Made by a program: the position numbers and the translations under genes
Notes under the pieces: generated by a model
Seen by the model: only the letters and a program-made list of their open reading frames with translations
Databases searched by the model: none
What the model was told of the DNA's origin: nothing
Shown: positions 35,539 to 49,986 of the stretch, one piece after another
Numbering within the stretch: position 1 is the stretch's first letter
Layout of the letters: every line of letters starts with the position of its first letter
Source: Streptomyces sp. NRRL F-2580
Lineage (GTDB): Bacteria > Actinomycetota > Actinomycetes > Streptomycetales > Streptomycetaceae
Length of the DNA stretch: 50,162 bases
Direction of reading: 5' to 3'
Assembly (NCBI RefSeq): GCF_000720115.1
Contig: NZ_JOIR01000044.1
Span: 1-50,162, forward strand

Positions 35539-36909
35539 CTAGCCCTCCAGCAGGCGGCCCATCCACTCCTCGATCCCGGCGACCGTGCGCGGCAGTGCGC
35601 CCGACATCAGGCGGGCGCCGTCCGCCGTGATCACCAGGTCGTCCTCGATGCGGACCCCGATGCCCCGCAGCGCCGCCGGGAGCGTCTCGTCGTCCGGCTG
35701 GAGGTACAGGCCCGGCTCCACCGTGAGGACCTGGCCCTCCTCCAGGACGCCCTCGAGGTAGGTCTCCGCCCGCGCCTTCGCGCAGTCGTGCACGTCCAGC
35801 CCCAGCATGTGCCCGCTGCTGCACAGCGTGTACCGGCGGTGCAGGTCGCCCTCCGCGTCCTTCAGGACGCCCCACTCCGCCAGGCCCTCCGCGATCACCC
35901 GCATGCCGGCCCGGTGGAAGTCGCCGAAGCTCGCGCCGGGGCGCAGCGCCGCCATGCCCGCCTCCTGCGCGGCCAGGACCAGTTCGTAGACCTGCCGCTG
36001 GACGGGGGAGAAGCGGCCCGACAACGGGAGGGTGCGGGTGATGTCCGCCGTGTAGAGGGTGTCCGTCTCCACGCCTGCGTCCAGCAGCAGCAGTTCGTCC
36101 CCGTTCAGCCGGCCGTCGTTGCGGATCCAGTGGAGGGTGCAGGCGTGGGCGCCCGAGGCCGCGATGGTCTCGTACCCGGTGCCGTTGCCCTCGGCCCGCG
36201 CGCGCAGGCCGAAGACCCCCTCGATCCACCGCTCCCCGCGCGGATGCGCCAGGGCGCGCGGCAGGGCCCGTACGACGTCCTCGAAGCCGGCCGCCGTGTG
36301 GTCCACGGCCAGCTGGAGCTGCTCGACCTCCCACGCGTCCTTCGCCAGGCGCAACTCCGAGAGGGCGGAGGCCAGTTCCGGGTCGCAGGCCGCGTCGCGG
36401 CCCGCCGGTGACCCCAGCTCGTCCAGGTGCGCGCAGCGGATGCCGGTGAGGCGCTGCGCCTCCGCCAGGTCCGGCCGGCGGCCCACCCAGAACTCCCCGT
36501 ACCTGCGGTCCCGGAAGAACTCCTCGTTCCCGCCCGCCCGCGGCGAGCGCGGCCGCAGGTACAGCACTGCCTCGTGGGCGTGCGGGCCCGACGGCTCCAT
36601 GACCAGGACGTGACCCGCCTGGTCCTCGCCCGTGAGGCCGGTCAGCCAGGCGTACGCGCTGTGCGGGCGGAACCGGTGGTCGCAGTCGTTGGAGCGGACC
36701 TTCAGCTCGCCGGCCGGGACGATCAGCCGCTCGCCGGGGAAGCGGGCCGAGAGCCGTGCCCGGCGGGCCGGGGTGACGGCGTACCCCGGTACGCGTGCGG
36801 AGTCGGGGAGCGGGGAAGTGGCCCAGTCGCCCGCCATGAAGCGGGACAACTCCGGGGATACCGGGCGGTCGTGACTGCCCGTGTTGAGGAGGGCGGGGGT
36901 CTCGGTCAC
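35539..36909 (-). CDS. pepP: Xaa-Pro aminopeptidase (PepP, M24B)
   Basis: Cytosolic metallopeptidase of 456 aa that removes the residue before a proline. The N-terminal aminopeptidase-P domain (RRARLSARFPGERLIVPAGE) is followed by the pita-bread catalytic domain. Metal ligands are in LLDAGVETDTLYTADITRT (two Asp), SSGHMLGLDVHD (His), LTVEPGLYL (Glu) and GVRIEDDLVI (Glu). GTG 36909 has a perfect GAAGGAG site. It is divergent from the secreted collagenase and shares its control region, so it probably trims imported collagen peptides, which are rich in Pro and hydroxyproline. Confidence 0.92.
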   Translation of the reverse strand: MTETPALLNTGSHDRPVSPELSRFMAGDWATSPLPDSARVPGYAVTPARRARLSARFPGERLIVPAGELKVRSNDCDHRFRPHSAYAWLTGLTGEDQAGHVLVMEPSGPHAHEAVLYLRPRSPRAGGNEEFFRDRRYGEFWVGRRPDLAEAQRLTGIRCAHLDELGSPAGRDAACDPELASALSELRLAKDAWEVEQLQLAVDHTAAGFEDVVRALPRALAHPRGERWIEGVFGLRARAEGNGTGYETIAASGAHACTLHWIRNDGRLNGDELLLLDAGVETDTLYTADITRTLPLSGRFSPVQRQVYELVLAAQEAGMAALRPGASFGDFHRAGMRVIAEGLAEWGVLKDAEGDLHRRYTLCSSGHMLGLDVHDCAKARAETYLEGVLEEGQVLTVEPGLYLQPDDETLPAALRGIGVRIEDDLVITADGARLMSGALPRTVAGIEEWMGRLLEG

Positions 36910-36951
36910 GAGGCTCCTTCAAGAATGATGCGAACTGATGGGCGCACAGGT

Positions 36952-36983
36952 CTTGTCAGTGCAATTTCACATTACTATGTTAC
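36952..36983 (+). promoter_or_regulatory. Collagenase promoter with GntR-type operator (copy A)
   Basis: TTGTCA (36953-36958), 17 bp, TATGTT (36976-36981) is a well-spaced sigma-70-type promoter. The spacer and -10 carry CACATTAC-TATGTTAC, two similar 8-bp half-sites in tandem (36968-36983). The 32-bp block is repeated with one change at 48172-48203. On the other strand a weak TTGCAC could serve the pepP gene, so one site may control both genes. Confidence 0.8.
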
Positions 36984-37084
36984 AGCTCACACCGCGGCAC
37001 GTTAACCCCCGTCAAACGCCGTGTGACCCAGGGCAGTTCACGCACCACCCCCCACCTCACCTCTCTCCCCATCAGGAGTTCTCG

Positions 37085-39457
37085 GTGCTCAAGCACAGAG
37101 CTGTGCGCTCTTCCCTTCTCGCCTCCGCCGTGGCCGTGACCCTCCTCGCCACCGCGGGACAGGCCACGACGCAGGCCGCCGAGTCCGCGGCGCCGGCCCC
37201 CTTCACCGCCGCCCGGACCGCTCCCGCCCCCGGTCCCACGGGGAACCCGTTCGACGAGGTCGACCGCCTCGCCAACGCGAAGGACAACACCCCGGCGCCC
37301 GCCCCGGCCCCCGGCGGACAGGCCATCACCGGCCAGGTGCCCGGCGCGGCGACCGCCGCCGCGCCCGCCGACGACCTGGAGAAGCGCGGCAAGGCGGCCA
37401 AGGCGGCCCCCACCGCGAAGAGCGTCGCCGCCGGCGTCCCCTGCACCCTCGACGGGATCACGAACCTCACCCCGGAGCAGTTCGCCGACTTCCTCGGCGA
37501 CCAGGCCGTCCTCGCCGACGGCTGCCTGCGCGGTCTCATCTGGACCTGGGACGCCCGCCTGGCCCCGGTGATGTCGGACGCGCACGTCCAGGCCGTCGCC
37601 CGCCGAATATCCGCCCTGGCCGCCGCCCACGACGGCCGCAACTCCTCCCACCTGGAGGAGATGTTCACGTACCTGCACGCGGTCGCCTACCACGACTTCT
37701 CACGCGACGAGATCGACGTCACCGACGCCCCGACCGTCGCCGCGACCCGCAAGGCCATCGACGACTTCGGCAACGCCGCGCGGACCTTCGACGTCACCCC
37801 CTCCAACGCCCGCACGCTGCGCGAGGCCCTCTACGCCGCGGGCCCCGGCCTGCGCCAGCACCAGCTCGGGCTCATCAAGAAGGTCCTGGCCACCATGGAC
37901 CCGGCGCACCCCGCCACGAATCTCGACGCCACCTGGGCCGGCGCCGTCCTCGCCGCGCTCTCGACCAACTACCTGGGCGTCTACCCGGGCAACGAGGACA
38001 CCGCCTTCCACGCCGCCGTCTCCGCCGACCCCGCCTACCGCGCCGCCTTCAAGGCCTTCGCCGGCTACACCCACCTCAAGGGGACCGGCAACGCCTGGGT
38101 GGCCCGCGACGCGCTCGGCGAGTACGGCCGCTTCGGCCAGGTCGACGGCCTGCGGGGCCAGATCGCCACCGACCTCGGCGCGCTGCTGGGGCCCGTCAAG
38201 ACCGGCTTCGGCGACGGCAGCGAGCAGTGGGCCAAGCTCGTCTCCTGGCTGAACTTCTACGAGGCGTGCAAGCCGTACGGGGTGTGCAAGGAGGACATCG
38301 AGAAGCAGCTCTTCCCCTACACCTACTCCTACGACAACGGCGCCATCAAGGTCCGCACCGCCCTGGACCGGGCCACCGTCGACCAGCTGTACTACGCGAG
38401 CAAGCAGGTCAAGGCCCAGTACCACCGCGTGCTCGGCACCGAGCAGCCGATCGCGGGCGACCCCAACACCACGCTCAACATCGTGCTCTACGCCTCCCGC
38501 GCCGACTACGTGAACTACCACCCGATCCTGACCGGCTACGGCACCAACAACGGCGGCATCTACATCGAGAACGGCGCCACCTTCTACACCTACCAGCGCC
38601 GCGTCCCGCAGGACTCCTCCCTCACCCTGGAAGAGCTCTTCCGCCACGAGTACACGCACTACCTCAACGGCCGCTACGCCGTCCCCGGCTTCTTCGGCGA
38701 GGGCCCCTGGTACGAGGGCGACCGCACGACCGCCATGGACGAGGGCACCGCCGAGTTCTTCGACGGCGCCACCCGCGACAACGGCATCGCCGTCCGCAAG
38801 TCCCTCGTGAAGAGCGTCATCAGCGACACCTCGGGCGGCGGCCCGCGCATGAGCGTCGAGCAGCTGCTGAACGCCACCTACGACGGCGACGGCTTCCGCT
38901 TCTACAGCTACGCCGGCACCTTCTTCGAGTTCCTGTGGACCGAGAAGCCCACCCTGCTGCGCGAGATGTACACCCACCTGCGCAACAACGACGTGGCGGC
39001 GTACGACTCCTGGCGCCACCGGATGGGCGCCGACAGCTACCTCCAGCGCGACTACGACCGCTTCCTGGACGCGCAGATCGCCAAGGTCGACCAGCTCTAC
39101 GTGCCGAACACCTCCTTCACCCCCAACGACCAGCTGCGCGACTCCGCGCTCGCGTCGGTGAAGTCGGCCTTCGCCAAGGCCACGTACAACACCCCGGACT
39201 GCGTGGAGAACGGCGACGCCGGCAAGCGCCGGTTCGCCTGTACCGGCCGGATCACCGCCAACCTGAAGAACTGGCGCAGCGACGACCAGAACTTCAAGGA
39301 CATGTCGGAGACGGTCGACTACTTCATCCTCGACCGGGCGGGCGCGGCCTCCAACAACCTCGCCGACATGAACTGCTCCTTCGGTCCGCTGGAGATCTGG
39401 AGCAACAACAAGGCGGGCACCTCGAGTTACAGCTGTGAGGGACCGCTCCGCAGCTGA
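37085..39457 (+). CDS. Secreted collagenase (peptidase family M9)
   Basis: Protein of 790 aa. A Sec signal peptide (HRAVRSSLLASAVAVTLLAT followed by AGQATTQAAES) precedes an Ala/Pro-rich propeptide of about 90 residues, then the M9 activator domain (ITNLTPEQFADFLG, then SHLEEMFTYLHAVAYHD) and the catalytic domain with zinc ligands H521, H525 (HEYTHYLNGRY) and E553 in DEGTAEFF. The 32-residue spacing from the first His to the Glu equals that of clostridial ColG. A helper-type C-terminal part ends CSFGPLEIWSNNKAGTSSY; PKD and collagen-binding domains are absent. GTG 37085 has an AGGAG site. It should cleave collagen or gelatin outside the cell. Confidence 0.93.
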   Translation: MLKHRAVRSSLLASAVAVTLLATAGQATTQAAESAAPAPFTAARTAPAPGPTGNPFDEVDRLANAKDNTPAPAPAPGGQAITGQVPGAATAAAPADDLEKRGKAAKAAPTAKSVAAGVPCTLDGITNLTPEQFADFLGDQAVLADGCLRGLIWTWDARLAPVMSDAHVQAVARRISALAAAHDGRNSSHLEEMFTYLHAVAYHDFSRDEIDVTDAPTVAATRKAIDDFGNAARTFDVTPSNARTLREALYAAGPGLRQHQLGLIKKVLATMDPAHPATNLDATWAGAVLAALSTNYLGVYPGNEDTAFHAAVSADPAYRAAFKAFAGYTHLKGTGNAWVARDALGEYGRFGQVDGLRGQIATDLGALLGPVKTGFGDGSEQWAKLVSWLNFYEACKPYGVCKEDIEKQLFPYTYSYDNGAIKVRTALDRATVDQLYYASKQVKAQYHRVLGTEQPIAGDPNTTLNIVLYASRADYVNYHPILTGYGTNNGGIYIENGATFYTYQRRVPQDSSLTLEELFRHEYTHYLNGRYAVPGFFGEGPWYEGDRTTAMDEGTAEFFDGATRDNGIAVRKSLVKSVISDTSGGGPRMSVEQLLNATYDGDGFRFYSYAGTFFEFLWTEKPTLLREMYTHLRNNDVAAYDSWRHRMGADSYLQRDYDRFLDAQIAKVDQLYVPNTSFTPNDQLRDSALASVKSAFAKATYNTPDCVENGDAGKRRFACTGRITANLKNWRSDDQNFKDMSETVDYFILDRAGAASNNLADMNCSFGPLEIWSNNKAGTSSYSCEGPLRS

Positions 39458-39464
39458 CCCGGCA

Positions 39465-39507
39465 CCGGACCGGTCCCGCGCCTGAGGAGGGTGCGGGACC
39501 GGTCCGG
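39465..39507. terminator. Strong terminator after the collagenase gene
   Basis: CCGGACCGGTCCCGC (39465-39479) and GCGGGACCGGTCCGG (39493-39507) form a perfect 15-bp stem with a 13-nt loop, starting 8 bp after the stop codon. It isolates the collagenase from the catabolic operon that follows. Confidence 0.85.
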
Positions 39508-39533
39508 GCAGGTCTGGGCAGCCAATAAAGAAT

Positions 39534-39545
39534 GTGACATATTAC
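39534..39545 (+). promoter_or_regulatory. Operator/-10 at the start of the hydroxyproline operon (site C)
   Basis: GTGACATATTAC lies 4 bp before the GTG start of the FAD subunit gene. Its TATTAC (39540-39545) is a plausible -10 box, which would put transcription start at or within the start codon. It resembles the half-sites of copies A and B. Confidence 0.6.
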
Positions 39546-39549
39546 TGCC

Positions 39550-40701
39550 GTGCTCAAGAGACACTCCCTGGACGCCGTGATCATCGGCGCCGGCGTCGTC
39601 GGGGCGGCCTGCGCCTACTACGCGGCCCGCGCCGGGCTCGCCGTGGCCGTGGTCGACCGCGGAGCCGTCGCCGGCGGCACGACCGGCGCCGGCGAAGGCA
39701 ACCTGCTCGTCTCCGACAAGGAGGCGGGCCCGGAGCTCGACCTGGCCCTCCTGTCCACCCGGCTCTGGACCGAACTCGCCGCGGTCCTCCCGCCCGCGAT
39801 CGAGTACGAGCCCAAGGGCGGGCTCGTCGTCGCCCCGGACGACGCCACCGTGCGGGCCCTGCGGAGCTTCGCCGAGGGCCAGCGCAAGGCCGGGGTCGAC
39901 GCGGTCGAGGTGCCCGCGGACGCCCTACAGGAGCTGGAGCCGCACCTGGCCCCGGGCCTGGCGGGCGGGTTCCACTACCCGCAGGACGCCCAGGTCCAGC
40001 CGGCCCAGGCGGCGGCGCGGCTGCTCGCCGCGTCCGGGGCCGAGGTGTACCTCGGCGAGGAGGTGACGGGCGTCCTGCTGGACCGGGGCGCCGTACGAGG
40101 CGTGCGCACCCCGCGCCGCGAACTCCTGGCCCCGGCCGTGGTGAACGCGGCCGGCACCTGGGGCGGCCGCATCGCCGAGCTGGCCGGCGTCACCCTGCCC
40201 GTCCTCCCGCGCCGCGGCTTCGTCCTGGTGACCGAGCCGCTCCCGCGACTGGTCCGGCACAAGGTCTACGCCGCCGACTACATCGCGGACGTCGCCAGCG
40301 GCTCCGCCGCCCTGCAGTCCTCGGCGGTGGTCGAGGGCACCCCCTCGGGCCCGGTCCTGATCGGCGCCACCCGGGAGCGGGTCGGCTTCGACCGCTCCCT
40401 CTCGACGGAGGCCCTGCGCCGGCTGGCCGCGCAGGCGGCGGCGCTCTTCCCGGTGCTGGCCGACGTCCGGGTCCTGCGCACCTACCACGGCTTCCGCCCC
40501 TACCTCCCCGACCACCTCCCGGCGATCGGCCCCGACCCCCGGCGCCCGGGCCTCCTGCACGCCTGCGGCCACGAGGGAGCCGGCATCGGCCTGGCCCCGG
40601 CCACCGGCGCCCTGATCACCGCCGCCCTGACGGGCGCCGAACCCCCGCTCCCCCAGGCCCCCTTCCACCCGGCGCGCTTCGACCAGGACCCGGCCCGATG
40701 A
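39550..40701 (+). CDS. D-hydroxyproline dehydrogenase, DAO-type FAD subunit
   Basis: Flavoprotein of 383 aa of the D-amino acid oxidase/glycine oxidase fold: DAVIIGAGVVGAACAYYAAR, GGTTGAGEGNLLVSDKEAGP, VVNAAGTWGG, and the C-terminal GLLHACGHEGAGIGLAPATG. With the next two genes it matches the three-subunit (flavin, small [2Fe-2S], large flavin/[2Fe-2S]) dehydrogenases that oxidise cis-4-hydroxy-D-proline to pyrroline-4-hydroxy-2-carboxylate. No ribosome site precedes GTG 39550, and the operator and -10 lie immediately upstream, so the mRNA is probably leaderless. A role on D-proline or sarcosine is the main alternative. Confidence 0.85.
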   Translation: MLKRHSLDAVIIGAGVVGAACAYYAARAGLAVAVVDRGAVAGGTTGAGEGNLLVSDKEAGPELDLALLSTRLWTELAAVLPPAIEYEPKGGLVVAPDDATVRALRSFAEGQRKAGVDAVEVPADALQELEPHLAPGLAGGFHYPQDAQVQPAQAAARLLAASGAEVYLGEEVTGVLLDRGAVRGVRTPRRELLAPAVVNAAGTWGGRIAELAGVTLPVLPRRGFVLVTEPLPRLVRHKVYAADYIADVASGSAALQSSAVVEGTPSGPVLIGATRERVGFDRSLSTEALRRLAAQAAALFPVLADVRVLRTYHGFRPYLPDHLPAIGPDPRRPGLLHACGHEGAGIGLAPATGALITAALTGAEPPLPQAPFHPARFDQDPAR

Positions 40702-40793
40702 CGGTCCGGGGAGAAGGCGCGCGCAGCGCGACCCGGTACCGGCCCGCGCCCCCCACCCGTACCGCGCCCGCGCCCGAGGAGAACCGCCGATGA
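40698..40793 (+). CDS. Possible 31-codon coupling ORF inside the dehydrogenase operon
   Basis: ATG 40698 overlaps the previous stop (ATGA) and the frame ends at TGA 40791-40793, which overlaps the next ATG in the same way. It reads MTVRGEGARSATRYRPAPPT and ends APAPEENRR. It would let ribosomes pass across an 88-bp gap without release. It may be non-functional as a peptide. Confidence 0.35.
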   Translation: MTVRGEGARSATRYRPAPPTRTAPAPEENRR

Positions 40794-41104
40794 GCCAGAC
40801 CCCGCGCACCCTCGTCGGCGGAGCCCCCTCTGCCACGTACGTCCTGCGCTTCGACGGCCGCGAACTCACGGCCCAGGCGGGCCAGAGCATCGCCGCCGCG
40901 CTCTGGGGCGCGGGGATCCTGGCCTGGCGGACCACCCGCGAGGGCGGCGCCCCGCGCGGCGCGTTCTGCGGGATCGGCAGCTGCTACGACTGCCTCGTCA
41001 CCGTCAACGGCCGCCCGAACCAGCGCGCCTGCCTGGTCCCGGCCCGCCCGGGGGACACCGTCACCACCCAGGAGGGAACCGGCCGTGCCGACCTCACCGT
41101 CTGA
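40790..41104 (+). CDS. D-hydroxyproline dehydrogenase, small [2Fe-2S] subunit
   Basis: Protein of 104 aa with a plant-type ferredoxin fold of the Fer2_4 kind: YVLRFDGRELTAQAGQSIAA, ALWGAGILAWRTTREGG, and cluster cysteines in FCGIGSCYDCLV with a further one in NQRACLVPA. Small subunits of this type (like HcnA or sarcosine/proline dehydrogenase gamma subunits) link two flavoproteins. ATG 40790 has GAGGAGAA upstream. The next gene starts 20 bp before this one ends, showing tight coupling. Confidence 0.88.
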   Translation: MSQTPRTLVGGAPSATYVLRFDGRELTAQAGQSIAAALWGAGILAWRTTREGGAPRGAFCGIGSCYDCLVTVNGRPNQRACLVPARPGDTVTTQEGTGRADLTV

Positions 41105-42515
41105 CCCCGCCGCCTTCACCGACGCCGCCTCGGCCGACGCCGCCTTCGACCTCGCCGTCGTCGGCGCCGGGCCGGCCGGGCTCGCCGCGGCCGTCACCGC
41201 CGCCGGGCTCGGCCTGCGGGTCGCCGTGCTCGACGCGGGGGACCGCCCCGGCGGGCAGTACTACCGTCACCCCGCCCCGGGCCTCGGCGCTGCCCGCCCC
41301 GAGGCCCTGCACCACGGCTGGGCCGACTTCGCCCGTCGCGAAGCCGCCCTGCGCGTCCACGAGTCGGCGGGCCGGATCACGTACCTCCCGGCCCACCACG
41401 TCTGGGCCGTGGTCCCGGACGGCGGCGGCTGGACACAGCACGCCGTCGCCGGTCCCGAGGAGGCCGCCGCCGCCCTGCGCGCCCGGGCCGTGCTCCTCGC
41501 CACCGGGTCGTACGAGCGGCAACTGCCCTTCCCCGGCTGGACCCTGCCCGGCGTGGTCGGGGCCGGCGGGGCCCAGGCCATGCTCAAGAGCGGGCTCGTC
41601 CTGCCCGGCAGGCGGGTCGTCGTCGCCGGGAGCGGTCCGCTGCTGCTCGCCGTCGCCGGCTCGCTCGCGGCCGCCGGGGCCCGGGTGCCGGCCGTGGTCG
41701 AAGCCGCGGCGTACACCGCGTACGCCGGCCACCTCCCCGCCCTGCTCCGCAACCCCGGCAAGCTCGCCGAAGCCGCCACGTACGGCAGCGCCCTCGTGCG
41801 CCGCCGCATCCGCCTCCTCACCCGGCACGCCGTGACCGAAGCCCACGGCACCGACCGGGTCGAGGCCGTCACCGTGGCCCGGCTCGACAGGGACTGGCGG
41901 CCGCTGCCGGGTACCGCCCGCCGGATCCCCTGCGACGCCCTCGCCGTCGGGCACGGGCTCGTCCCGCAGCTGGAGCTGGCGACCGGCCTTGGCTGCGCCA
42001 CCCGCCGGACCGCCGACGGCACCGTCGCGTTGGCGCTGGACGCCCAGCAGCGGACCTCCGTCCCCGGGATCTGGTCCGCGGGGGAGACCGGCGGCATCGG
42101 CGGCGCCCAACTGGCCCTCGTCGAGGGGGAGATCGCCGCCCACGCGATCGCAGGCCGGCCCGCGCCCGCCGCCCTCACCGGCCGCCGCGCCCGCCTGCGC
42201 GGCTTCGCCGAGGCCATGGGCGCCGCCCACCGGCCCGGCGACGGCTGGACCGGCTGGCTCCGCGACGACGCCGTCGTGTGCCGCTGCGAGGAGGTTCCGG
42301 CCGGCCGGATCCGCGAGGCCGTCGCCGATCTGGGCGCCCGGGACGCCCGTACGGTCAAACTCCTCACCCGCTCCGGAATGGGCTGGTGCCAGGGCCGCAT
42401 GTGCGGACCTGCCGTCGCCGCCCTCGCCGGCGGCGAGCCCGGGCCCGACCGGCGGCCCCTGTCCTGCCCGGTCCCGCTGCGCCACCTCGCGCAACTGCCC
42501 CCGGCGGACGACTGA
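41085..42515 (+). CDS. D-hydroxyproline dehydrogenase, large FAD/[2Fe-2S] subunit
   Basis: Protein of 476 aa. FAD motif LAVVGAGPAGLAAAVTAAGL, ATGSYERQLPFPGWTLPGVV, second dinucleotide site RVVVAGSGPLLLAVAGSLAA, and SVPGIWSAGETGGIGGAQLA. The C-terminal BFD-like [2Fe-2S] domain has CRCEEVPAGRIREAV and GWCQGRMCGPA, giving four cysteines in a CxC...Cx4C pattern. It matches HcnB/alpha subunits of heteromeric D-hydroxyproline and proline dehydrogenases, passing electrons on to a carrier. GTG 41085 overlaps the small-subunit gene by 20 bp and has GGAGGG upstream. Confidence 0.87.
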   Translation: MPTSPSDPAAFTDAASADAAFDLAVVGAGPAGLAAAVTAAGLGLRVAVLDAGDRPGGQYYRHPAPGLGAARPEALHHGWADFARREAALRVHESAGRITYLPAHHVWAVVPDGGGWTQHAVAGPEEAAAALRARAVLLATGSYERQLPFPGWTLPGVVGAGGAQAMLKSGLVLPGRRVVVAGSGPLLLAVAGSLAAAGARVPAVVEAAAYTAYAGHLPALLRNPGKLAEAATYGSALVRRRIRLLTRHAVTEAHGTDRVEAVTVARLDRDWRPLPGTARRIPCDALAVGHGLVPQLELATGLGCATRRTADGTVALALDAQQRTSVPGIWSAGETGGIGGAQLALVEGEIAAHAIAGRPAPAALTGRRARLRGFAEAMGAAHRPGDGWTGWLRDDAVVCRCEEVPAGRIREAVADLGARDARTVKLLTRSGMGWCQGRMCGPAVAALAGGEPGPDRRPLSCPVPLRHLAQLPPADD

Positions 42516-42532
42516 TCGGGCGGCCCGGCCTC

Positions 42533-42574
42533 TTGTGGCCGCTCCACACCCACTAGTAAAATGTCACACATCAC
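42533..42574 (+). promoter_or_regulatory. Promoter and operator of the deaminase gene (site D)
   Basis: TTGTGG (42533-42538), 18 bp, TAAAAT (42557-42562) is a good promoter within the operon. GTCACACATCAC (42563-42574) follows directly, over the expected transcription start, and resembles the other GntR-type sites. GGGAG at 42579-42583 then serves ATG 42591. Confidence 0.6.
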
Positions 42575-42590
42575 TCTAGGGAGCTCTCTC

Positions 42591-43523
42591 ATGACCGACG
42601 CGCACACCCCCGCGCCCACCACCGGTACGGACACCCGCACCCGCCCCTGGCACGGCATCATGGTCGCCACCGCCCTCCCCCTGCGCGAGGACCTCACCGT
42701 CGACTACGACGCCTACGCCGAACACGTGGCCTGGCTGATCGCCAACGGCTGCGACGGCGTGGTCCCCAACGGCTCCCTCGGGGAGTACCAGACCCTCACC
42801 GACGAGGAGCGCGCGCGGGTCGTGCGCACCGCCGTCGAAGCCGCCGGCGACGGCGCCCGCGTGATGCCCGGCGTCGCCGCGTACGGCAGTGCCGAGGCCC
42901 GCCGCTGGGCCGAGCAGGCCGCCGAGGCCGGCGCCGGCTCCGTACTCCTCCTGCCGCCCAACGCCTTCCGGGCCGACGAGGAGACCGTACGCGCCCACTA
43001 CGCCGAGGTCGCCCGCGCCGGGCTGCCCGTCGTCGCGTACAACAACCCGTACGACACCAAGGTGGACCTGACCCCGGCCCTCCTCGCCCGGCTGCACACC
43101 GACGGCTCCATCGTCGCCGTCAAGGAGTTCAGCGGGGACGTGCGCCGCGCCTACGAGATCGCCGAACTCGCCCCCGGCCTCGACCTGCTCATCGGCGCCG
43201 ACGACGTCCTGCTCGAACTCGCCCTCGCGGGCGCCGTCGGCTGGATCGCCGGCTACCCCAACGCGCTCCCCAACTCCTGCGCCACCCTCTACCGGGCCGC
43301 CGTCGCCGGGGACCTCACCACCGCCCTGCCGCTCTACAAGTCCCTGCACTCCCTGCTGCGCTGGGACTCCAAGACCGAGTTCGTCCAGGCCATCAAGCTC
43401 TCCATGGACCTGGCCGGGCGCCCCGGCGGCGCCACCCGTCCGCCCCGCTTCCCGCTCACCGGCGACACCGAGGCGGCCGTCCGCGCCGCCACCGAGAAGG
43501 CCCTCGCCGAGGGCCTCAACTAA
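42591..43523 (+). CDS. DapA-family pyrroline-4-hydroxy-2-carboxylate deaminase (probable)
   Basis: TIM-barrel aldolase/lyase of 310 aa. Schiff-base Lys178 in VAVKEFSGD and Tyr150 in VAYNNPYD are present, along with NGSLGEYQTLTDEERARVV and PGVAAYGSAEARRWAEQAA. In hydroxyproline catabolism a DapA-family enzyme removes ammonia and water from pyrroline-4-hydroxy-2-carboxylate to give 2-oxoglutarate semialdehyde. The position between the dehydrogenase and the epimerase supports that over lysine biosynthesis. ATG 42591 is preferred to ATG 42561, which lies inside the operator and has no ribosome site. Confidence 0.82.
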   Translation: MTDAHTPAPTTGTDTRTRPWHGIMVATALPLREDLTVDYDAYAEHVAWLIANGCDGVVPNGSLGEYQTLTDEERARVVRTAVEAAGDGARVMPGVAAYGSAEARRWAEQAAEAGAGSVLLLPPNAFRADEETVRAHYAEVARAGLPVVAYNNPYDTKVDLTPALLARLHTDGSIVAVKEFSGDVRRAYEIAELAPGLDLLIGADDVLLELALAGAVGWIAGYPNALPNSCATLYRAAVAGDLTTALPLYKSLHSLLRWDSKTEFVQAIKLSMDLAGRPGGATRPPRFPLTGDTEAAVRAATEKALAEGLN

Positions 43524-43543
43524 CCGACTGGAGGGGACGCCAG

Positions 43544-44548
43544 ATGCGTACGCGCCACGTCTACCACGCGGTGGACTCGCACACCGAGGGCATGCCGACC
43601 CGGGTGATCACCGGGGGAGTCGGGGTGATCCCCGGTGCCACCATGGCCGAGAAGCGGCTCCACTTCATCGAGCACACGGACCACGTCCGCACCCTGCTCA
43701 TGTACGAGCCGCGCGGGCACTCCGCGATGAGCGGCGCCATCCTGCAGCCCCCCACCCGCCCCGACGCCGACTTCGGCGTCCTCTACATCGAGGTGTCCGG
43801 CCTGCTCCCCATGTGCGGGCACGGCACCATCGGTGTCGCCACCGTCCTCGTCGAGACCGGCATGGTGCCCGTCGTCGAGCCGGTCACCACGGTCCGGCTC
43901 GACACCCCGGCCGGACTGGTGAGCGTCGACGTCCGCGTCGAGGACGGTGCGGCCACCGCCGTCACCCTCACCAACGTCCCCTCCTTCAGCGTCGGCCTCG
44001 ACCTCAAGGCCGAGGTCGCCGGCTTCGGCACGGTCACCTACGACCTGGCCTACGGCGGCAACTTCTACGCCTTCGTCGAACTCGACGCCCTCGGCCTCCC
44101 CTTCGACCGCGCCCGCAAGGACGACCTGCTCGCCGCCGGACTCGCGGTCATGGACGCGATCAACGCGGGCGACGACCGGCCCGTCCACCCCGAGAACCCC
44201 TCCATCGCCGGGGTCAAGCACGTCTACCTCGCCGCCCCCGGCTCCGACGCCCGCCGCTCCCGGCACGCCATGGCCATCCACCCGGGCTGGTTCGACCGCT
44301 CGCCCTGCGGTACGGGCACCAGCGCGCGGATGGCCCAGCTGCACGCCCGCGGCCTCCTGGAGCTCGGCGCGGACTTCGTCAACGAGTCCTTCATCGGCAC
44401 CGAGTTCACCGGGCGGCTGGTCGCGCGGACCACCGTCGGCGGACTCCCGGCCGTGGTCCCCACGGTCACCGGCCGGGCCTGGATCACCGGCACCGCCCAG
44501 TACTTCCTCGATCCGGCCGACCCCTTCCCCGGAGGCTTCCTCCTGTGA
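43544..44548 (+). CDS. 4-hydroxyproline 2-epimerase / proline racemase family
   Basis: Cofactor-independent epimerase of 334 aa. The two catalytic cysteines are C91 in MCGHGTIG and C255 in DRSPCGTGTSAR, the pair found in proline racemase and 4-hydroxyproline epimerase. HAVDSHTEGMPTRVITGGVG and EPRGHSAMSGAIL are family marks. It would convert trans-4-hydroxy-L-proline to the cis-4-D form, the substrate of the upstream dehydrogenase. ATG 43544 has GGAGGGG. It overlaps the next paralogue by GTGA. Context favours hydroxyproline over proline. Confidence 0.87.
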   Translation: MRTRHVYHAVDSHTEGMPTRVITGGVGVIPGATMAEKRLHFIEHTDHVRTLLMYEPRGHSAMSGAILQPPTRPDADFGVLYIEVSGLLPMCGHGTIGVATVLVETGMVPVVEPVTTVRLDTPAGLVSVDVRVEDGAATAVTLTNVPSFSVGLDLKAEVAGFGTVTYDLAYGGNFYAFVELDALGLPFDRARKDDLLAAGLAVMDAINAGDDRPVHPENPSIAGVKHVYLAAPGSDARRSRHAMAIHPGWFDRSPCGTGTSARMAQLHARGLLELGADFVNESFIGTEFTGRLVARTTVGGLPAVVPTVTGRAWITGTAQYFLDPADPFPGGFLL

Positions 44549-45561
44549 TCACCGTCCGAACGGTGGACTACCACACCGCCGGCGAGCCGTTCCGGATCGT
44601 CGACTGCGGCGCGCAGGGCCCGGCGGTGCCCGGTGATACCGTCGCCGAGCGCTGTGCCACCGCCATCGGCCCGGGTGGCTCGGGGACCGCCCCGCGCCGG
44701 GGCGCGCTCGACGACGTACGGCGCCTGCTCGTGCAGGAGCCGCGCGGACACGCCGGGATGTACGGGGGGTTCGTGGTCCCGGCCGACGACGACGGGGCCC
44801 ACTTCGGCGTGCTGTTCTGGCACAAGGACGGCTACTCCACCGCGTGCGGCCACGGCACCATGGCCCTCGGCGCCTGGGCCGTGGACACCGGCCGGGTCGC
44901 CGCCCCGGACGACGGCGACGCCCAGGTGCGCATCGACGTACCGTCCGGGCGGGTCACCGCGACCGTGCACCGGGACGGCGGCCGCACCACCGGGGTCACC
45001 TTCCGCAACGTGCCGGCCCGGGTGGGCGCCCGCAAGGTCCCCGTCGCCACCACCCTCGGCCTCGCCGAGGTGGACATCGCGCACGCCGGGGCCTGCTACG
45101 CCTCCGTCCGCGCCCGCGACCTCGGCCTGGACGTCTCCCGGTCCTCCCTGCCCGCCCTGGTGCGGGCCGGCCGGGAGATCCGGGCCGCGCTCGCCACGCA
45201 CCCCGCCACCTGGCACCCCGACGGCCCGCTGCTGTCCGGGGTGTACGGGGTGATCCTCCACGAGGAGCTCCCGGACACTCCGTTCGGGCCGCACCAGCGC
45301 AACGTCACCGTGTTCGCGGACGGCCAGATCGACCGCTCGCCCTGCGGCTCCGGCACCTCGACGCGGCTCGCCCTGCTCGCGGAGGACGGGCGGCTCGGCC
45401 CCGGCGAGGACCTGCTGCACGAGTCGGTCACCGGCACGATGTTCACCGGACGGATGCTGGACGGCGGGGTCACCGAGGTCACCGGCACCGCCTACCGCAC
45501 CGGCGAACACTCCTTCGTGCTCGACCCGCACGACGCGCTGGGGACGGGATTCCCGTGGTGA
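44545..45561 (+). CDS. Second proline-racemase-superfamily enzyme, possibly trans-3-hydroxy-L-proline dehydratase
   Basis: Paralogue of 338 aa with RTVDYHTAGEPFRIVDCGA, EPRGHAGMYGGFVVPA, C101 in TACGHGTMALGAW and C267 in DRSPCGSGTSTRLALL. The DYHTAGEPFRIV start recalls 3-hydroxyproline dehydratases, and the next gene encodes a reductase that would take the product pyrroline-2-carboxylate to proline. However, well-studied dehydratases have Thr at the second site, whereas Cys/Cys is kept here, so epimerase or racemase activity is equally possible. It starts with GTG overlapping the epimerase stop and ends overlapping the reductase. Confidence 0.75.
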   Translation: MITVRTVDYHTAGEPFRIVDCGAQGPAVPGDTVAERCATAIGPGGSGTAPRRGALDDVRRLLVQEPRGHAGMYGGFVVPADDDGAHFGVLFWHKDGYSTACGHGTMALGAWAVDTGRVAAPDDGDAQVRIDVPSGRVTATVHRDGGRTTGVTFRNVPARVGARKVPVATTLGLAEVDIAHAGACYASVRARDLGLDVSRSSLPALVRAGREIRAALATHPATWHPDGPLLSGVYGVILHEELPDTPFGPHQRNVTVFADGQIDRSPCGSGTSTRLALLAEDGRLGPGEDLLHESVTGTMFTGRMLDGGVTEVTGTAYRTGEHSFVLDPHDALGTGFPW

Positions 45562-46586
45562 GGCGGTCCGATGTGGGGAGGTCCGCCGGGCCGGCCCCGG
45601 CCGCGTCGGCCGCCGCGGCGCCGGCCACGGCCCCGGCGGGTCCGGTTGCGGGCGGGCTCCCGCAGTTGGGCGCCGACGCCATGGCCGAGCTCCTGACCCC
45701 GGCGGCGGCGGCGGATGCCCTGGCGGAGGTCCTTCGGGCCGGGCTGGATCCCGAGAACTGTCCGCAGCGTACGGCGCTCGCCGTACCCGGCGGCGAACTG
45801 CTGCTGATGCCGGCCGCGTCCGGCTCGTACGCCGGGGTGAAGATCGCCGGGGTGGCGCCCGGCAACCCGGCCCGCGGGCTGCCCCGGATCACCGGCTCCT
45901 ACCTGCTGCTGGACGGGCCCACCCTGCGCCCGCTGGCCCTGCTCGACGGAGCCGCCCTGACCACCCTGCGCACGCCGGCCGTCTCCGCCCTCGCGCTGCG
46001 CCACCTGGCCCCGGCCGGCCGCCCGCTGCGGCTGGTGCTCTTCGGCTCCGGACCCCAGGCCTATGGGCACCTCGAAGCGGCGCTCTCGGTCCGGGAGTTG
46101 GCCGAGGTGGTGGTGGTCGCCCGCGACCCGGCGGGCGGGGAGCGGCTCGCCGCGCACGCCCGCGGCCTGGGACTGCCCGCCCGGACCGGTACCCCGAAGG
46201 CGGTGGCCGACGCGGATCTGGTGATCTGCTGCACCACCGCCCGGGAACCGCTCTTCGACGGGCGCCTCGTCGGCCCGGGCGCCACCGTCGTCGCCGTGGG
46301 CTCGCACGAGCCGACCGCCCGGGAGACGGACACGGCCCTCGTGCGACGCGCGGCCGTGTACGTGGAATCCCGCGCGGCGGCCCTGCGGGAGGCCGGTGAC
46401 CTGCTGGTCCCGGAGGCGGAGGGGGCGATCGGGCCCGGCCACATCACCGGCACCCTCGCCGACCTGGTCGCGGGGCGGATGCCGGCGGGCGGAGCGCAGA
46501 GTTGTCCACAGCTCTTCAAGAGTGTGGGCATGGCCTGGGAAGATCTCGCCGTGGCGGTCGCGCTGTGGGAGGCCGCCGGAGTGTGA
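45558..46586 (+). CDS. Ornithine cyclodeaminase/mu-crystallin family reductase (pyrroline-2-carboxylate reductase?)
   Basis: Protein of 342 aa. After an Ala/Pro-rich leader of about 35 residues come LLMPAASGSYAGVKIAGVAP (substrate lysine), ALLDGAALTTLRTPAVSALA, the Rossmann motif RLVLFGSGPQAYGHLEAAL, ADADLVICCTTAREPLFDG, and the C-terminal LFKSVGMAWEDLAVAVALWE. In 3-hydroxyproline catabolism this family reduces pyrroline-2-carboxylate to L-proline with NAD(P)H. The GTGA overlap with the previous gene makes joint action likely. Ornithine cyclodeaminase activity is the alternative. A start further in, near ATG 45681, would remove the leader. Confidence 0.78.
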   Translation: MRRSDVGRSAGPAPAASAAAAPATAPAGPVAGGLPQLGADAMAELLTPAAAADALAEVLRAGLDPENCPQRTALAVPGGELLLMPAASGSYAGVKIAGVAPGNPARGLPRITGSYLLLDGPTLRPLALLDGAALTTLRTPAVSALALRHLAPAGRPLRLVLFGSGPQAYGHLEAALSVRELAEVVVVARDPAGGERLAAHARGLGLPARTGTPKAVADADLVICCTTAREPLFDGRLVGPGATVVAVGSHEPTARETDTALVRRAAVYVESRAAALREAGDLLVPEAEGAIGPGHITGTLADLVAGRMPAGGAQSCPQLFKSVGMAWEDLAVAVALWEAAGV

Positions 46587-46596
46587 GCAGCGCAAC

Positions 46597-46608
46597 GTGA
46601 CATTGTAC
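46597..46608 (+). promoter_or_regulatory. GntR-type site upstream of the regulator gene (site E)
   Basis: GTGACATTGTAC lies 48 bp before the GntR start codon. It shares GTGACAT and a terminal TAC with site C. Autoregulation is likely. Confidence 0.55.
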
Positions 46609-46656
46609 GCTGTTCCTCTGCGCGTCGGTGGTGTCGGGGGTCTCGGAGGAAATGCA

Positions 46657-47367
46657 ATGGGTGACCTGAAGCAGCACAGTCTCATCAAGGCCCAGGAACG
46701 GCTCCGCGACCAGGTAGGCCACGCACTGCGAGCCGCCCTGATAGCGGGTGAGCTGCGCCCCGGCAGCGTCTACTCGGCTCCCGGCCTCGCGACCGAACTC
46801 GGAGTCTCGGCCACCCCGGTGCGCGAGGCGATGCTCGACCTGGCCCGGGAGGGACTGGTCGAGCCGGTCCGCAACAAGGGTTTCCGGATCACCGAGGTCA
46901 GCGAGCGCGACCTGGACCAGTTCACCGAACTGCGCACGATGATCGAGGTGCCGACCATCGGCCGGATCACGAAGATCGCCACGACGGAGCAGCTGGAGGC
47001 GCTGCGGCCGATCGCGGAGGAGATCGTCACCAGCGCGCGCGAGCACAACCTCATCGGTTACCTGGAGGCGGACCGCCGCTTCCACCTCACGCTGCTCGGG
47101 CTCGCGGGCAACGACCGGCTCGTCGAGACCGTCGGCGACCTGCGCAAGCGGTCCCGCCTGTACGGGCTGACCGGCCTGGACGAGGCCGGCAAGCTCGTCT
47201 CCTCGGCGGAGGAGCACATCGAGCTGCTCGACCTGATGATCAGCGGCGACGCCGCGGCGGCCGAGGCCTGCATGGTCCGCCACCTCGGCCACGTCCGCTC
47301 GCTCTGGGCCCAGGGCCGCGACGAACCGGTCGGCCGCACCCCGGGCGGCCTCGGCTCCGGCCTCTAG
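46657..47367 (+). CDS. GntR/FCD family transcriptional regulator of the collagen/hydroxyproline genes
   Basis: Regulator of 236 aa. The winged helix spans residues about 15-80: LRDQVGHALRAALIAGELRP, ATELGVSATPVREAMLDLAR and VEPVRNKGFRITEVS. The all-helical FCD effector domain follows, with metal/ligand residues in the EADRRFHLTLLGLAGNDRLV and EEHIELLDLMISGD segments. ATG 46657 has GGAGG at 46645-46649. A site resembling those of the structural genes lies upstream. FCD regulators usually repress and release DNA on binding a small acid; hydroxyproline or a pyrroline derivative is the likely ligand. Confidence 0.88.
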   Translation: MGDLKQHSLIKAQERLRDQVGHALRAALIAGELRPGSVYSAPGLATELGVSATPVREAMLDLAREGLVEPVRNKGFRITEVSERDLDQFTELRTMIEVPTIGRITKIATTEQLEALRPIAEEIVTSAREHNLIGYLEADRRFHLTLLGLAGNDRLVETVGDLRKRSRLYGLTGLDEAGKLVSSAEEHIELLDLMISGDAAAAEACMVRHLGHVRSLWAQGRDEPVGRTPGGLGSGL

Positions 47368-47369
47368 AC

Positions 47370-47386
47370 CCGGCGGCAGCCGCCGG
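47370..47386 (+). terminator. Hairpin after the GntR gene
   Basis: CCGGCGGC (47370-47377) pairs with GCCGCCGG (47379-47386); a realistic fold has a 6-bp stem and 5-nt loop. It starts 2 bp after the stop and only 21 bp before the HAD gene. Confidence 0.5.
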
Positions 47387-47407
47387 TCCACCGCCTATCC
47401 TGTGGGG

Positions 47408-48058
47408 ATGATCAAGCCGGTAGAGCTCGTGATATTCGACTGCGACGGTGTCCTGGTCGACAGTGAACGCCTCGCGGTACGCCTCCAGGTGGAGCTCGGG
47501 GCGGAGTTGGGCTGGCCGCTGACCGCGGACGAGGTGGTCGAGCGCTTCATCGGCCGCTCCAAGGAGTCGATCGTCGAGCAGCTCGCCGAGCGGCTCGGCG
47601 TGCAGACGGCCGCGCTCTGGTGGAAGCGGCTCATCGAGCGGCACCGGGACGCGGTGGACCTCGGGCTGGACCCGGTGGAGGGGCTGCCCGAGGCGCTCGC
47701 CGCCATCACCCTGCCGACCTGCGTCGCGTCCAGCGGCTCGCACGAGAAGATGCGGCACACCCTGGGGCGCACCGGTCTGTACGGCCACTTCGAGGGCCGT
47801 ATCTTCAGTGCGAGCGAGGTCTCCCGGGGCAAGCCCGCCCCGGACCTCTTCCTGCATGCCGCCCGCACGATGGGCTTCGACCCGCAGGTGTGCGCGGTGG
47901 TCGAGGACAGCGGGCCCGGCGTCCGGGCGGCCAGGGCGGCCGGGATGCGCGCGTTCGGCTACTCCGGCGGCCCGACGCCCGCCGGGCGGCTCGAAGGCCC
48001 CGGCACGATCGTCTTCGACGACATGCGCAAGCTTCCGGAACTGCTCGCCGCGATCTGA
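47408..48058 (+). CDS. HAD-superfamily phosphatase (phosphoglycolate/phosphoglucomutase-like)
   Basis: Protein of 216 aa. Motif I is IFDCDGVLVDSE, motif II is TCVASSGSH, the lysine of motif III is in SRGKPAPDLFLHA and motif IV is CAVVEDSGPGVRAARAAGM. The helical cap between residues 15 and 85 gives the beta-phosphoglucomutase/phosphoglycolate subclass. The substrate is unknown. ATG 47408 is used; GTG 47402 is possible. It separates the regulator from the transporter; no role in hydroxyproline use is evident. Confidence 0.87.
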   Translation: MIKPVELVIFDCDGVLVDSERLAVRLQVELGAELGWPLTADEVVERFIGRSKESIVEQLAERLGVQTAALWWKRLIERHRDAVDLGLDPVEGLPEALAAITLPTCVASSGSHEKMRHTLGRTGLYGHFEGRIFSASEVSRGKPAPDLFLHAARTMGFDPQVCAVVEDSGPGVRAARAAGMRAFGYSGGPTPAGRLEGPGTIVFDDMRKLPELLAAI

Positions 48059-48171
48059 CACCCGGCCCCGTCCCCCGGGTCGCGTCCGAGCCTGCCTCCC
48101 CACACCGAGCCTCCCAACACCGCACCGGGCAGAGGGATTTGGACACGGCTGAATAACGGGCCGCTCAACCC

Positions 48172-48203
48172 CTTGTCAGTACAATTTCACATTACTATGT
48201 TAC
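48172..48203 (+). promoter_or_regulatory. Peptide transporter promoter with GntR-type operator (copy B)
   Basis: TTGTCA (48173-48178), 17 bp, TATGTT (48196-48201), with the same CACATTAC-TATGTTAC tandem half-sites. The block equals 36952-36983 except for A in place of G at 48181. Further downstream both copies also share TCACACC. The transporter gene starts 40 bp after the block. Confidence 0.8.
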
Positions 48204-48243
48204 CGGTCACACCCTAGAGCGCGGCCCTTCACTGGAGTGACCC

Positions 48244-49986
48244 ATGACCAAGCGCACCCAACTCGCCCTCGCCACCGCCCTGGTGGCAGCACTCGCACTC
48301 GGCGCCTCGGGCTGCTCCGACACGAAGAAGGGCTCCGCCGGCGCCGGCGCGTCCAACCCCGCCGCCGCCAACGACGGCAAGATCCTCGGCGGCGCCCCGG
48401 TCAAGGGCGGCACCCTCACCGTCCTGTCCAACCAGGACTTCGCCCACCTCGACCCCGCCCGCAACTGGGTCATGCCGACCATGGACTTCGGCACGCGCCT
48501 CCTCTACCGCACCCTCGTCACCTTCAAGGCCGAGCCCGGCAAGGCCGGCAGCGAGCTGGTCCCCGACCTCGCCACCGACCTCGGCACCCCCTCCAACGGC
48601 GGCCGCACCTGGACCTTCACCCTCAAGGAGGGCGTGAAGTACGAGGACGGCACCCCGGTCAGGGCCCAGGACGTCAAGTACAACGTCGAGCGCTCCTTCG
48701 CCCCCGACCTCACCGGCGGCCCCGACTACGCGGCCCAGTACCTGGCCGGGACCGAGGGCTACAAGGGCCCGCTCCAGGGGCAGCACCTCGACTCCGTCAA
48801 GACCCCCGACGACCGCACGATCGTCTTCGAACTCAAGCGACCGGTGGCCGAGTTCTCCGCGACGGCCACCCTGCCGACCTTCTCGCCCGTGCCCCAGTCC
48901 CAGGAGAAGGGCACCCAGTACGACGCCCGCCCGTTCTCCTCCGGCCCTTACAAGATCGAGTCGTACGACCGCGACAAGAAGCTGGTCCTGGTCCGCAACG
49001 AGCACTGGGACGCGAAGACCGACACCGTGCGCAAGGCCTACCCCGACAAGTTCGTCGTCGTCATGGGCCTCAAGGGCGGCCAGGTCGACGACCGCATCAT
49101 CGCCGGCGAGGGCCCCGACGCCTCCACCGTCCAGTACGCCGACATGCGCCCCGAGAGCGCCCCCAAGGTGCTGCCCAAGCCGGACGTCAAGGCGCGCCTG
49201 ATCGCGGAGTCCAAGGGCTGTACCGAGATGCTCTTCCTCAACAACTCCCGCGCCCCCTTCGACGACCCCAAGGTCCGCGAGGCCGTGCAGTACGCCGTCG
49301 ACAAGGAGGCCGTGGTCACCGCCGGCGGCGGGCCGGCCCTCAACGAGATCGCCACCGCCTACCTGCCCCCGGCGCTGACCGGCGGCAAGCAGGCCGACAC
49401 GCTGAAGATCGCCCCGGCCGGCGACCCGGCCAAGGCCAAGGAACTGCTGAAGGCCGCCGGCAAGGAGAAGCTCAAGGTCTCCCTGTCCGTCTCCACCGGC
49501 GACAAGAACGTCGCCGAGGCCATCCAGCAGGGCCTGTCCCGCGCGGGCATCGAGGTCGTCATCGACACCGTCGACCCGGGCGCGTACTACGACGTCATCG
49601 GCGATCTGTCCACCACCCCCGACATGACCTTCACCGGCTGGTGCCCCGACTACCCGTCCGGCTCCACTTGGATCCCGTTCGTCTTCGACGGACGCACCAT
49701 CAAGGACAAGGGCAACCAGGGCAACTACAGCCAGTTCCGCGACGAGGCGACCATCAAGCGGATCGACGAGATCAACAACATGGCCGACGCGAAGCAGGCC
49801 AACCAGGCCTGGATCGACCTGGACGCGGAGCTCATGAAGAAGTCCCCGTCCATCCCGGTCCTGCTGGAGCGCAAGCCGCTGCTCGTCGGCCCCAACATCG
49901 CCGGCGCGTTCGGCCACCCGGTGTGGACCGGCGAGATCGACTACGCGACGGTCGGCCTCAAGGACCCGTCGAAGAGCCAGGGCTGA
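48244..49986 (+). CDS. Peptide ABC transporter substrate-binding lipoprotein (SBP_bac_5)
   Basis: Binding protein of 580 aa. The lipoprotein signal is TKRTQLALATALVAALALGA ending in SGC (Cys near residue 24). The family 5 fold shows KGGTLTVLSNQDFAHLDPAR, RTWTFTLKEGVKYEDGTPV, ARDVKYN-like QDVKYNVERSF, RPFSSGPYKIESYDRDKKLV and VREAVQYAVDKEAV. Such proteins bind di- or oligopeptides. The promoter is shared with the collagenase, so collagen-derived peptides are the likely ligand. ATG 48244 has GGAG 9 bp upstream. A permease-like gene starts 24 bp after its stop. Confidence 0.9.
   Translation: MTKRTQLALATALVAALALGASGCSDTKKGSAGAGASNPAAANDGKILGGAPVKGGTLTVLSNQDFAHLDPARNWVMPTMDFGTRLLYRTLVTFKAEPGKAGSELVPDLATDLGTPSNGGRTWTFTLKEGVKYEDGTPVRAQDVKYNVERSFAPDLTGGPDYAAQYLAGTEGYKGPLQGQHLDSVKTPDDRTIVFELKRPVAEFSATATLPTFSPVPQSQEKGTQYDARPFSSGPYKIESYDRDKKLVLVRNEHWDAKTDTVRKAYPDKFVVVMGLKGGQVDDRIIAGEGPDASTVQYADMRPESAPKVLPKPDVKARLIAESKGCTEMLFLNNSRAPFDDPKVREAVQYAVDKEAVVTAGGGPALNEIATAYLPPALTGGKQADTLKIAPAGDPAKAKELLKAAGKEKLKVSLSVSTGDKNVAEAIQQGLSRAGIEVVIDTVDPGAYYDVIGDLSTTPDMTFTGWCPDYPSGSTWIPFVFDGRTIKDKGNQGNYSQFRDEATIKRIDEINNMADAKQANQAWIDLDAELMKKSPSIPVLLERKPLLVGPNIAGAFGHPVWTGEIDYATVGLKDPSKSQG

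Follow-up and report, generated by a model that had tools for sequence, protein, structure and literature searches.

A near-identical promoter block with a predicted HypR operator precedes a collagenase gene and a peptide-type importer gene in Streptomyces

Introduction

In Streptomyces coelicolor A3(2), HypR (SCO6294) has been described as a zinc-binding GntR/FadR-type repressor (Kotowska et al. 2019, PMC6608401) that, according to the available portions of that study, acts on its own gene, the hydroxyproline operon SCO6289-6293, the collagenase gene SCO5912 and SCO5281. A HypR regulon has also been predicted in silico in Proteobacteria (Alteromonadales; Leyn et al. 2016, PMC5343134, available in part). 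Here we analyse contig NZ_JOIR01000044.1 of Streptomyces sp. NRRL F-2580 (the window; the whole stretch of 50,162 nucleotides), in which two near-identical copies of a promoter block, one before a secreted collagenase gene and the other before the binding-protein gene of a peptide-type importer, very likely contain an operator for a HypR orthologue encoded between them.

At the hypR promoter of S. coelicolor, the footprint of the repressor covers TACAATGTCAC; similar sites are shifted in gels, and the consensus is CTNTGC(A/C)ATGTCAC. In the electrophoretic mobility shift assay (EMSA), it binds an SCO5911/5912 fragment that contains TGCAATGTCAC, and the promoter of the SCO5912 collagenase is active only when HypR is missing. 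L-hydroxyproline induced reporters of the hypR and SCO6289 promoters, whereas L- and D-hydroxyproline left binding in vitro unchanged; the symmetry of the site was called not clear by the authors (all from the available text of PMC6608401).

The locus described here is similar to the S. coelicolor regulon in that a GntR/FCD repressor with the same five DNA-contact residues lies beside a hydroxyproline operon, and in that predicted operators are found at hypR, the operon and an M9 collagenase gene. The collagenase gene heads the hydroxyproline cluster in the window, whereas it is a distant gene in S. coelicolor, and the accessible part of PMC6608401 names no peptide importer, Xaa-Pro aminopeptidase or trans-3-hydroxyproline gene pair. 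The Proteobacterial regulon likewise places hydroxyproline catabolism, secreted collagenases, proline (di)peptidases and a proline di/tripeptide permease under a GntR-family regulator, but it belongs to another phylum, is known in silico only and, in the portion of PMC5343134 at hand, comes with no description of a near-identical promoter cassette. A literature search, with most subscription journals outside its scope, turned up no publication that places a peptide importer of Streptomyces among the targets of HypR. Control of a collagenase by HypR is known; the additions that our sequence comparisons suggest are the importer as a target, a wider chain of genes and a symmetric operator.

Two copies of the promoter block

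The segments 36952-36983 and 48172-48203 are identical at 31/32 bases, as the original prediction had stated, the sole difference being G/A at 36961/48181, and no match with up to three mismatches was obtained in 100 dinucleotide-preserving shuffles of the window. The blocks and the genes that flank them are as follows.

35539..36909, minus strand: Xaa-Pro aminopeptidase, aminopeptidase P-type (Peptidase_M24 and AMP_N), divergent from the collagenase gene across block copy 1
36953..36983, plus strand: block copy 1, putative collagenase promoter/operator, -35 TTGTCA at 36953-36958 and -10 TATGTT at 36976-36981
37085..39457, plus strand: secreted M9 collagenase, start codon inferred (Peptidase_M9 1.4e-46, Peptidase_M9_N 1.6e-08)
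48173..48203, plus strand: block copy 2, putative promoter/operator of the importer binding-protein gene, -35 at 48173-48178 and -10 at 48196-48201
48244..49986, plus strand: solute-binding lipoprotein of a peptide-type ABC importer (SBP_bac_5, family 5, 4.2e-72)

The TTGTCA-17-TATGTT element that had been proposed for each block was recovered in copy 1 (36953-36981) as the only promoter-like site in a scan of 36850-37150 (shuffle mean 0.0), with 9/12 matches to the sigma-70 consensus and a spacer of 17 nt, within the 16-18 nt allowed. The scan covered copy 1 only; in copy 2, identical hexamers at 48173-48201, with the same matches and spacing, were found by reading. The block therefore resembles a sigma-70-type promoter, with these hexamers as the putative -35 and -10 elements. 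The whole genome of the strain (8.45 Mb, 156 contigs) contains just two copies at up to three mismatches and none of a reversed-pattern control, rather than the many unrelated loci expected of a dispersed repeat. We also note that TCACA, or GCACA in some loci, recurs a few bases past the -10 hexamer in many loci, and is located at 36987-36991 and 48207-48211 in the window.

The best solved relative of the importer binding protein is 2wok, the oligopeptide-binding protein 2 of clavulanic acid biosynthesis. OppA is its best NCBIfam model, far below the cut-off, and the peptide-importer models all score below their cut-offs. The contig itself ends at 50162, and the importer permeases are therefore out of view in the window; in two relatives examined (L264 and L255), the binding-protein gene is followed by two permease genes and an ATPase gene with oligo_HPY.

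The regulator at 46657 and the hydroxyproline cluster

Between the two blocks lies a hydroxyproline cluster that ends in a GntR/FCD gene, and a HAD-family hydrolase gene stands between this regulator and block 2.

39550..40701, plus strand: FAD oxidoreductase (DAO), likely D-hydroxyproline dehydrogenase beta, assigned from its domain and a gene order as in SCO6289-6293
40790..41104, plus strand: 2Fe-2S protein (Fer2_4 domain), likely dehydrogenase gamma
41085..42515, plus strand: protein with Pyr_redox_2 and Fer2_BFD domains, likely dehydrogenase alpha
42561..43523, plus strand: DHDPS-family protein, likely pyrroline-4-hydroxy-2-carboxylate deaminase from its domain, real start possibly further in
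43544..44548, plus strand: proline racemase family (Pro_racemase 3.6e-128), likely 4-hydroxyproline epimerase; the NCBIfam epimerase model gives 356.6 bits, slightly under its cut-off of 376
44545..45561, plus strand: second proline-racemase-family gene, likely trans-3-hydroxyproline dehydratase; best NCBIfam model trans-3-hydroxy-L-proline dehydratase, below cut-off
45558..46586, plus strand: OCD/mu-crystallin family, likely pyrroline-2-carboxylate reductase from its domain; NCBIfam below cut-off
46657..47367, plus strand: GntR/FCD repressor of 236 aa, very probably the hypR orthologue (GntR PF00392 3.3e-14, FCD PF07729 2.6e-24)

The original prediction had named this regulator as the simplest agent of co-control, and this is the reading that the evidence supports best. 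The regulator adjoins genes with DAO, Fer2_4, Pyr_redox_2, DHDPS and Pro_racemase domains in the order of SCO6289-6293, with two extra genes before hypR. Residues S51, T53, R56, R72 and N73 of the window protein correspond to the DNA-contact residues Ser50, Thr52, Arg55, Arg71 and Asn72 of S. coelicolor HypR (numbering +1), and the same S/T/R/R/N set is present in 58/58 HypR matches of at least 67% identity, drawn from fewer than 58 genomes as some loci overlap. In addition, the promoter of the gene itself keeps the footprinted core TACAATGTCAC with 0 mismatches (46597-46607, minus strand). Together these features make the protein very probably the orthologue of HypR. As for co-control, block 1 has a precedent in the SCO5912 site. 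The best solved relatives of the regulator are 3fms and 3sxy of the GntR family, and its best NCBIfam model is phnR_burk, below cut-off; a protein of 87% identity is listed for S. venezuelae.

Besides the genomes with a close HypR (at least 65% identity), 73 encode a more distant HypR-like protein, matched with an E value of 1e-60 or lower. Eight of these proteins (L303-L310, 62-66% identity), from genomes without orthologues of the collagenase or importer, lie in a hydroxyproline cluster at 7/8 loci examined, and 7/8 have a proline in place of one contact arginine (S/T/R/P/N).

A predicted inverted-repeat operator

Five putative HypR operators can be placed in the window.

36957..36979, plus strand: predicted 23-bp operator CAGTGCAATTTCACATTACTATG, centre 36968, with core TGCAATTTCAC at 36960-36970
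39525..39547, minus strand: predicted operator directly before the hydroxyproline operon, CAGTAATATGTCACATTCTTTAT, with the shared symmetry
42554..42576, plus strand: predicted weaker operator at the DHDPS-like gene, TAGTAAAATGTCACACATCACTC
46588..46610, minus strand: predicted operator in the hypR promoter, GCGTACAATGTCACGTTGCGCTG, with the S. coelicolor footprint core
48177..48199, plus strand: predicted 23-bp operator CAGTACAATTTCACATTACTATG, centre 48188, with core TACAATTTCAC at 48180-48190

Three places in the window match the pattern TRCAATNTCAC perfectly, namely both blocks and the hypR promoter, and a fourth, at the DHDPS-like gene, has one mismatch. The core of block 1 is a single change away from the S. 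coelicolor collagenase-site core, and exact TGCAATGTCAC is found in some of the orthologous blocks (G036, G006 and G158). In the upstream stretches, short patterns picked out sites at 86/94 hypR, 96/96 DAO and 36/54 DHDPS genes. Sites of the hydroxyproline operon mostly read CAGTAATATTTCACATTGCACTG or CAGTAATATGTCACATTCTTTAG, both on the opposite strand, those of hypR mostly GCGTACAATGTCACGTTGCGCTG and those of the DHDPS-like gene mostly TAGTAAAATGTCACACACCACTC, and all of them share their alignment centre with the blocks.

Aligned in this way, the sites suggest that the operator is an inverted repeat approximating CAGTGCAATGT-S-ACATTGCACTG (symmetrised consensus, S = C/G), and thereby a symmetry that the available HypR report leaves open. 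Palindromic agreement pooled over the five site classes was 0.594, compared with 0.313 +/- 0.094 for a column-shuffle null (p 0.0016); the classes are pattern-picked from upstream stretches of partly block-selected, overlapping loci, some sites of the divergent DAO gene fall into the SBP and colA classes, and the p values from column shuffling thus serve as guides. The palindromy was best at the chosen centre among seven centres tried. The tandem half-sites CACATTAC and TATGTTAC of the original prediction do not coincide with the operator half-sites: the conserved symmetry is that of an inverted repeat whose centre is the C of TTTCACA (36968 and 48188), although direct repeats were weighed by eye only. 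Sites for GlnR, MtrA, Crp and PhoP were also considered and set aside, although no search aimed at them was made. The operators of the FadR subfamily (FCD; TKGT/ACMA, as quoted in the accessible part of PMC6608401) share the GT-N-AC centre and inverted arms with the sites described here, whereas the arms in the window extend to a repeat of ~23 bp and the blocks mostly have TTTCAC in place of TGTCAC.

Across 87 collagenase and importer blocks, 80 of which were found at the limit of three mismatches, the run ATnTCACAT is invariant. The most variable places include positions 3 and 4 of the -35 hexamer and the purine of the left arm, and on the collagenase side also the third base of the -10 hexamer and an A of the left arm. 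The two most degenerate importer blocks (G047 and G050), with six differences each, one of them inside the run, lie outside this table. The left arm of the block is nearly ideal, while the right arm deviates where the -10 hexamer sits, a pattern that fits a repressor competing with RNA polymerase between the -35 and -10 elements. A looser operator pattern gave 16 matches in the strain's own genome, compared with 2 for the control.

Conservation of the block across genomes

In a genus sample of 199 genomes, which includes related species and some overlapping loci, 83 copies of the block were present at up to three mismatches in 56/199 genomes, with 0 copies of the reversed control. Forty-four copies lie before collagenase orthologues, 36 before importer orthologues and three elsewhere. 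The block thus precedes 44 of the 51 collagenase orthologues (in 50 genomes) and 36 of the 40 importer orthologues (in 39 genomes, at least 64% identity). The seven collagenase orthologues without such a match comprise five with a weaker block or core and two (G114 and G048) at contig ends, and all four remaining importer orthologues have a weaker block. With these weaker copies, which were accepted by eye, the block is found before 49/49 evaluable collagenase and 40/40 importer orthologues. A HypR of ~69% identity or more is encoded in all 56 block-bearing genomes; a close HypR (at least 65%) without the block at this limit is found in 31 genomes, and neither in 112.

At least 117 stretches from named genomes contain the exact 31-mer; among the matches listed, the 80 titles are Streptomyces except for two stretches of one record, Actinobacteria bacterium OV450. 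At the level of the family, the block is present in 112/297 genomes and 4/17 genera, three of them beyond Streptomyces, in a sample partly shared with the 199-genome set. At 28 family-level loci examined, of which eight were returned by the search and 20 chosen by hand, 28/30 blocks are followed immediately by the gene of an importer or a collagenase. The two exceptions are L343, where only an aminopeptidase gene was found, and a second block in L367, between the collagenase's own block and the aminopeptidase gene.

The three genus-level copies found elsewhere comprise one at a contig end (G048) and two at other genes. In L251 (G143; 2390-2420), the block precedes a second proline-racemase/OCD pair, likely of the trans-3-hydroxyproline pathway, in a genome whose importer gene has its own copy. 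In L252 (G175; 5108-5138), as in L343 (G282; 1501-1531), the block adjoins an Xaa-Pro aminopeptidase gene, and neither an importer nor a collagenase gene was found downstream within the stretch; such a copy is either a remnant or a sign of aminopeptidase control. In many genomes, as in the window, an Xaa-Pro aminopeptidase gene lies next to the block and reads away from it. The aminopeptidase and trans-3-hydroxyproline genes are probably further HypR targets beyond the published regulon.

Evidence against the proposed control and alternative explanations

In the reading that we regard as very likely, the block combines a sigma-70-type promoter with an internal HypR operator and puts the collagenase and the importer under joint control with the hydroxyproline operon and hypR, which have operators of the same kind. 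A number of observations weigh against this. The orthology with SCO6294 is deduced from domains, contact residues, neighbourhood and operator, and HypR binding at the importer promoter is itself predicted. Compared by eye, the published consensus is matched at only 12/14 bases in block 1 and 11/14 in block 2, and block 2 falls beyond three mismatches of the symmetric 17-mer used in a stricter search. Moreover, 4-7 differences from the main form were counted in 4/40 importer and 5/49 collagenase blocks. Among the 31 genomes with a close HypR and no block, six carry a target orthologue, with weaker blocks in 6/6, and 25 carry neither target. The association between HypR and the block has a Fisher p of 2.5e-27, a value that ignores kinship and depends on a cut-off for "close" (65% identity, E 6.8e-86) set after inspection of the list. 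As 136 of the 143 block-less genomes are without both target orthologues, the link between HypR and the block partly reflects joint gene presence.

The alternative that fares best, to which we give a small chance, is that HypR binds the block but a second factor, such as an activator, is also needed, with the importer and collagenase responding to more than hydroxyproline. In its favour, hardly any change is seen in GTGCAATTTCACATTACTATGTTAC from genus to genus, although identity of the importer protein drops to 54-57% in many of the loci examined. However, the dual load of an operator and -35/-10 elements could alone explain such constancy, and the -35 hexamer and the third base of the collagenase-side -10 hexamer are among the most variable places of the block, as in an ordinary promoter. 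Somewhat less probable still is that the block is bound by a different regulator, with HypR acting indirectly or through other sites. The HypR-like sites at the hydroxyproline operon and at hypR are indeed less tightly conserved than the block, which has 2-3 mismatches to the 14 bases of the published consensus. Nevertheless, the core of block 1 lies one base from that of the site to which HypR binds by EMSA in the available S. coelicolor report, some orthologous blocks carry the core of that site exactly, and the symmetry of the block is shared with the sites of hypR and the hydroxyproline operon.

We consider it very improbable that recent promoter copying or gene conversion produced the two blocks, which would make a shared regulator unnecessary. 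Near-identity at a distance of 11 kb on one chromosome is what copying would give, but the distance between collagenase and importer blocks of the same genome is 2.0, compared with 1.89 between shuffled genomes (27 pairs, p(<=obs) 0.92). Copies that share a genome are no more alike than copies across genomes, so that the likeness is not due to gene conversion and is better explained by shared function, and the occurrence of the same block in four genera contradicts copying as the sole cause; the explanation was rejected. Least probable of all, and likewise rejected, is a dispersed repeat or mobile element, for which nothing speaks beyond the identity itself, since genomes elsewhere contain 0-3 copies (reversed control 0) and 151/160 copies of the first set, counted with overlapping loci included and the window's own four first loci excluded, stand before a collagenase or importer gene, the other nine being unclassed in stretches that end within 450 nt.

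Other HypR-like sites

A strong HypR-like site elsewhere in the strain's genome, TGTAATGTCACATCGCA (G000:C47:13517-13533; L283:1501-1517), overlaps a gene start. The product of this gene is probably secreted and weakly matches pyroglutamyl-peptidase (C15), slightly below the Pfam cut-off; the gene is divergent from that of an S58-family peptidase. A site of this type at up to three mismatches is found at the same place in 9/12 of the closest orthologues (at least 75% identity, own included). No such site better than six mismatches, the level of the control, was found in the other three of the 12, including one whose best match has six, or in 18 more distant loci; in L318 and L320 the inferred gene starts may be off. 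Also in the strain's own genome, the palindromic HypR-like site TGCGATGTCACATTGCG (G000:C54:9947-9963; L284:1501) is flanked by an FKBP-type gene and by the end of a PafA-type-looking gene, both named by eye, and is possibly due to chance.

In other genomes, the site TACAATGGCACATGTCAC (L259:8021 and L278:11710) and the site TACAATGGCACAGGTCAC (L279:16485) occur at loci with a weakly collagenase-like gene (24-27% identity to that of the window). L259 and L278 also hold a second, more distant GntR gene (44-46%), and these three loci perhaps represent a sister regulon.

Discussion

In the mechanism that we propose, a dimer of the HypR orthologue encoded at 46657 would bind the 23-bp inverted repeat, which begins at the end of the -35 hexamer and stops inside the -10 hexamer. 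As the operator overlaps both hexamers, the bound repressor and RNA polymerase would be mutually exclusive. In the presence of hydroxyproline, or of a product of hydroxyproline, HypR would release the DNA, and the collagenase, peptide importer, hydroxyproline operon and hypR would be turned on together. The Xaa-Pro aminopeptidase gene on the far side of block 1 is probably controlled in the same way. Both the dimeric binding and the nature of the release signal are inferred.

More tentatively, operator and promoter may have become fused into a cassette of ~25 bp that stays near-constant across genera while the importer diverges to ~55% identity. Such a cassette could follow function (collagenase, importer and the trans-3-hydroxyproline pair), might act in both directions towards the Xaa-Pro aminopeptidase gene and could give rise to a self-priming loop, with collagen peptides relieving their own repression once imported; we regard this extension as possible rather than likely.

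If the proposed control is correct, a single repressor would govern a feeding chain of Streptomyces that runs from the cutting of collagen outside the cell through the import of peptides and their trimming at proline to the breakdown of 4- and probably 3-hydroxyproline. A likely importer of collagen fragments would thereby be named, a symmetric HypR operator would be open to testing, and a hydroxyproline-controlled promoter would be offered for testing. The logic of the regulon predicted in Proteobacteria may therefore exist in Actinobacteria too.

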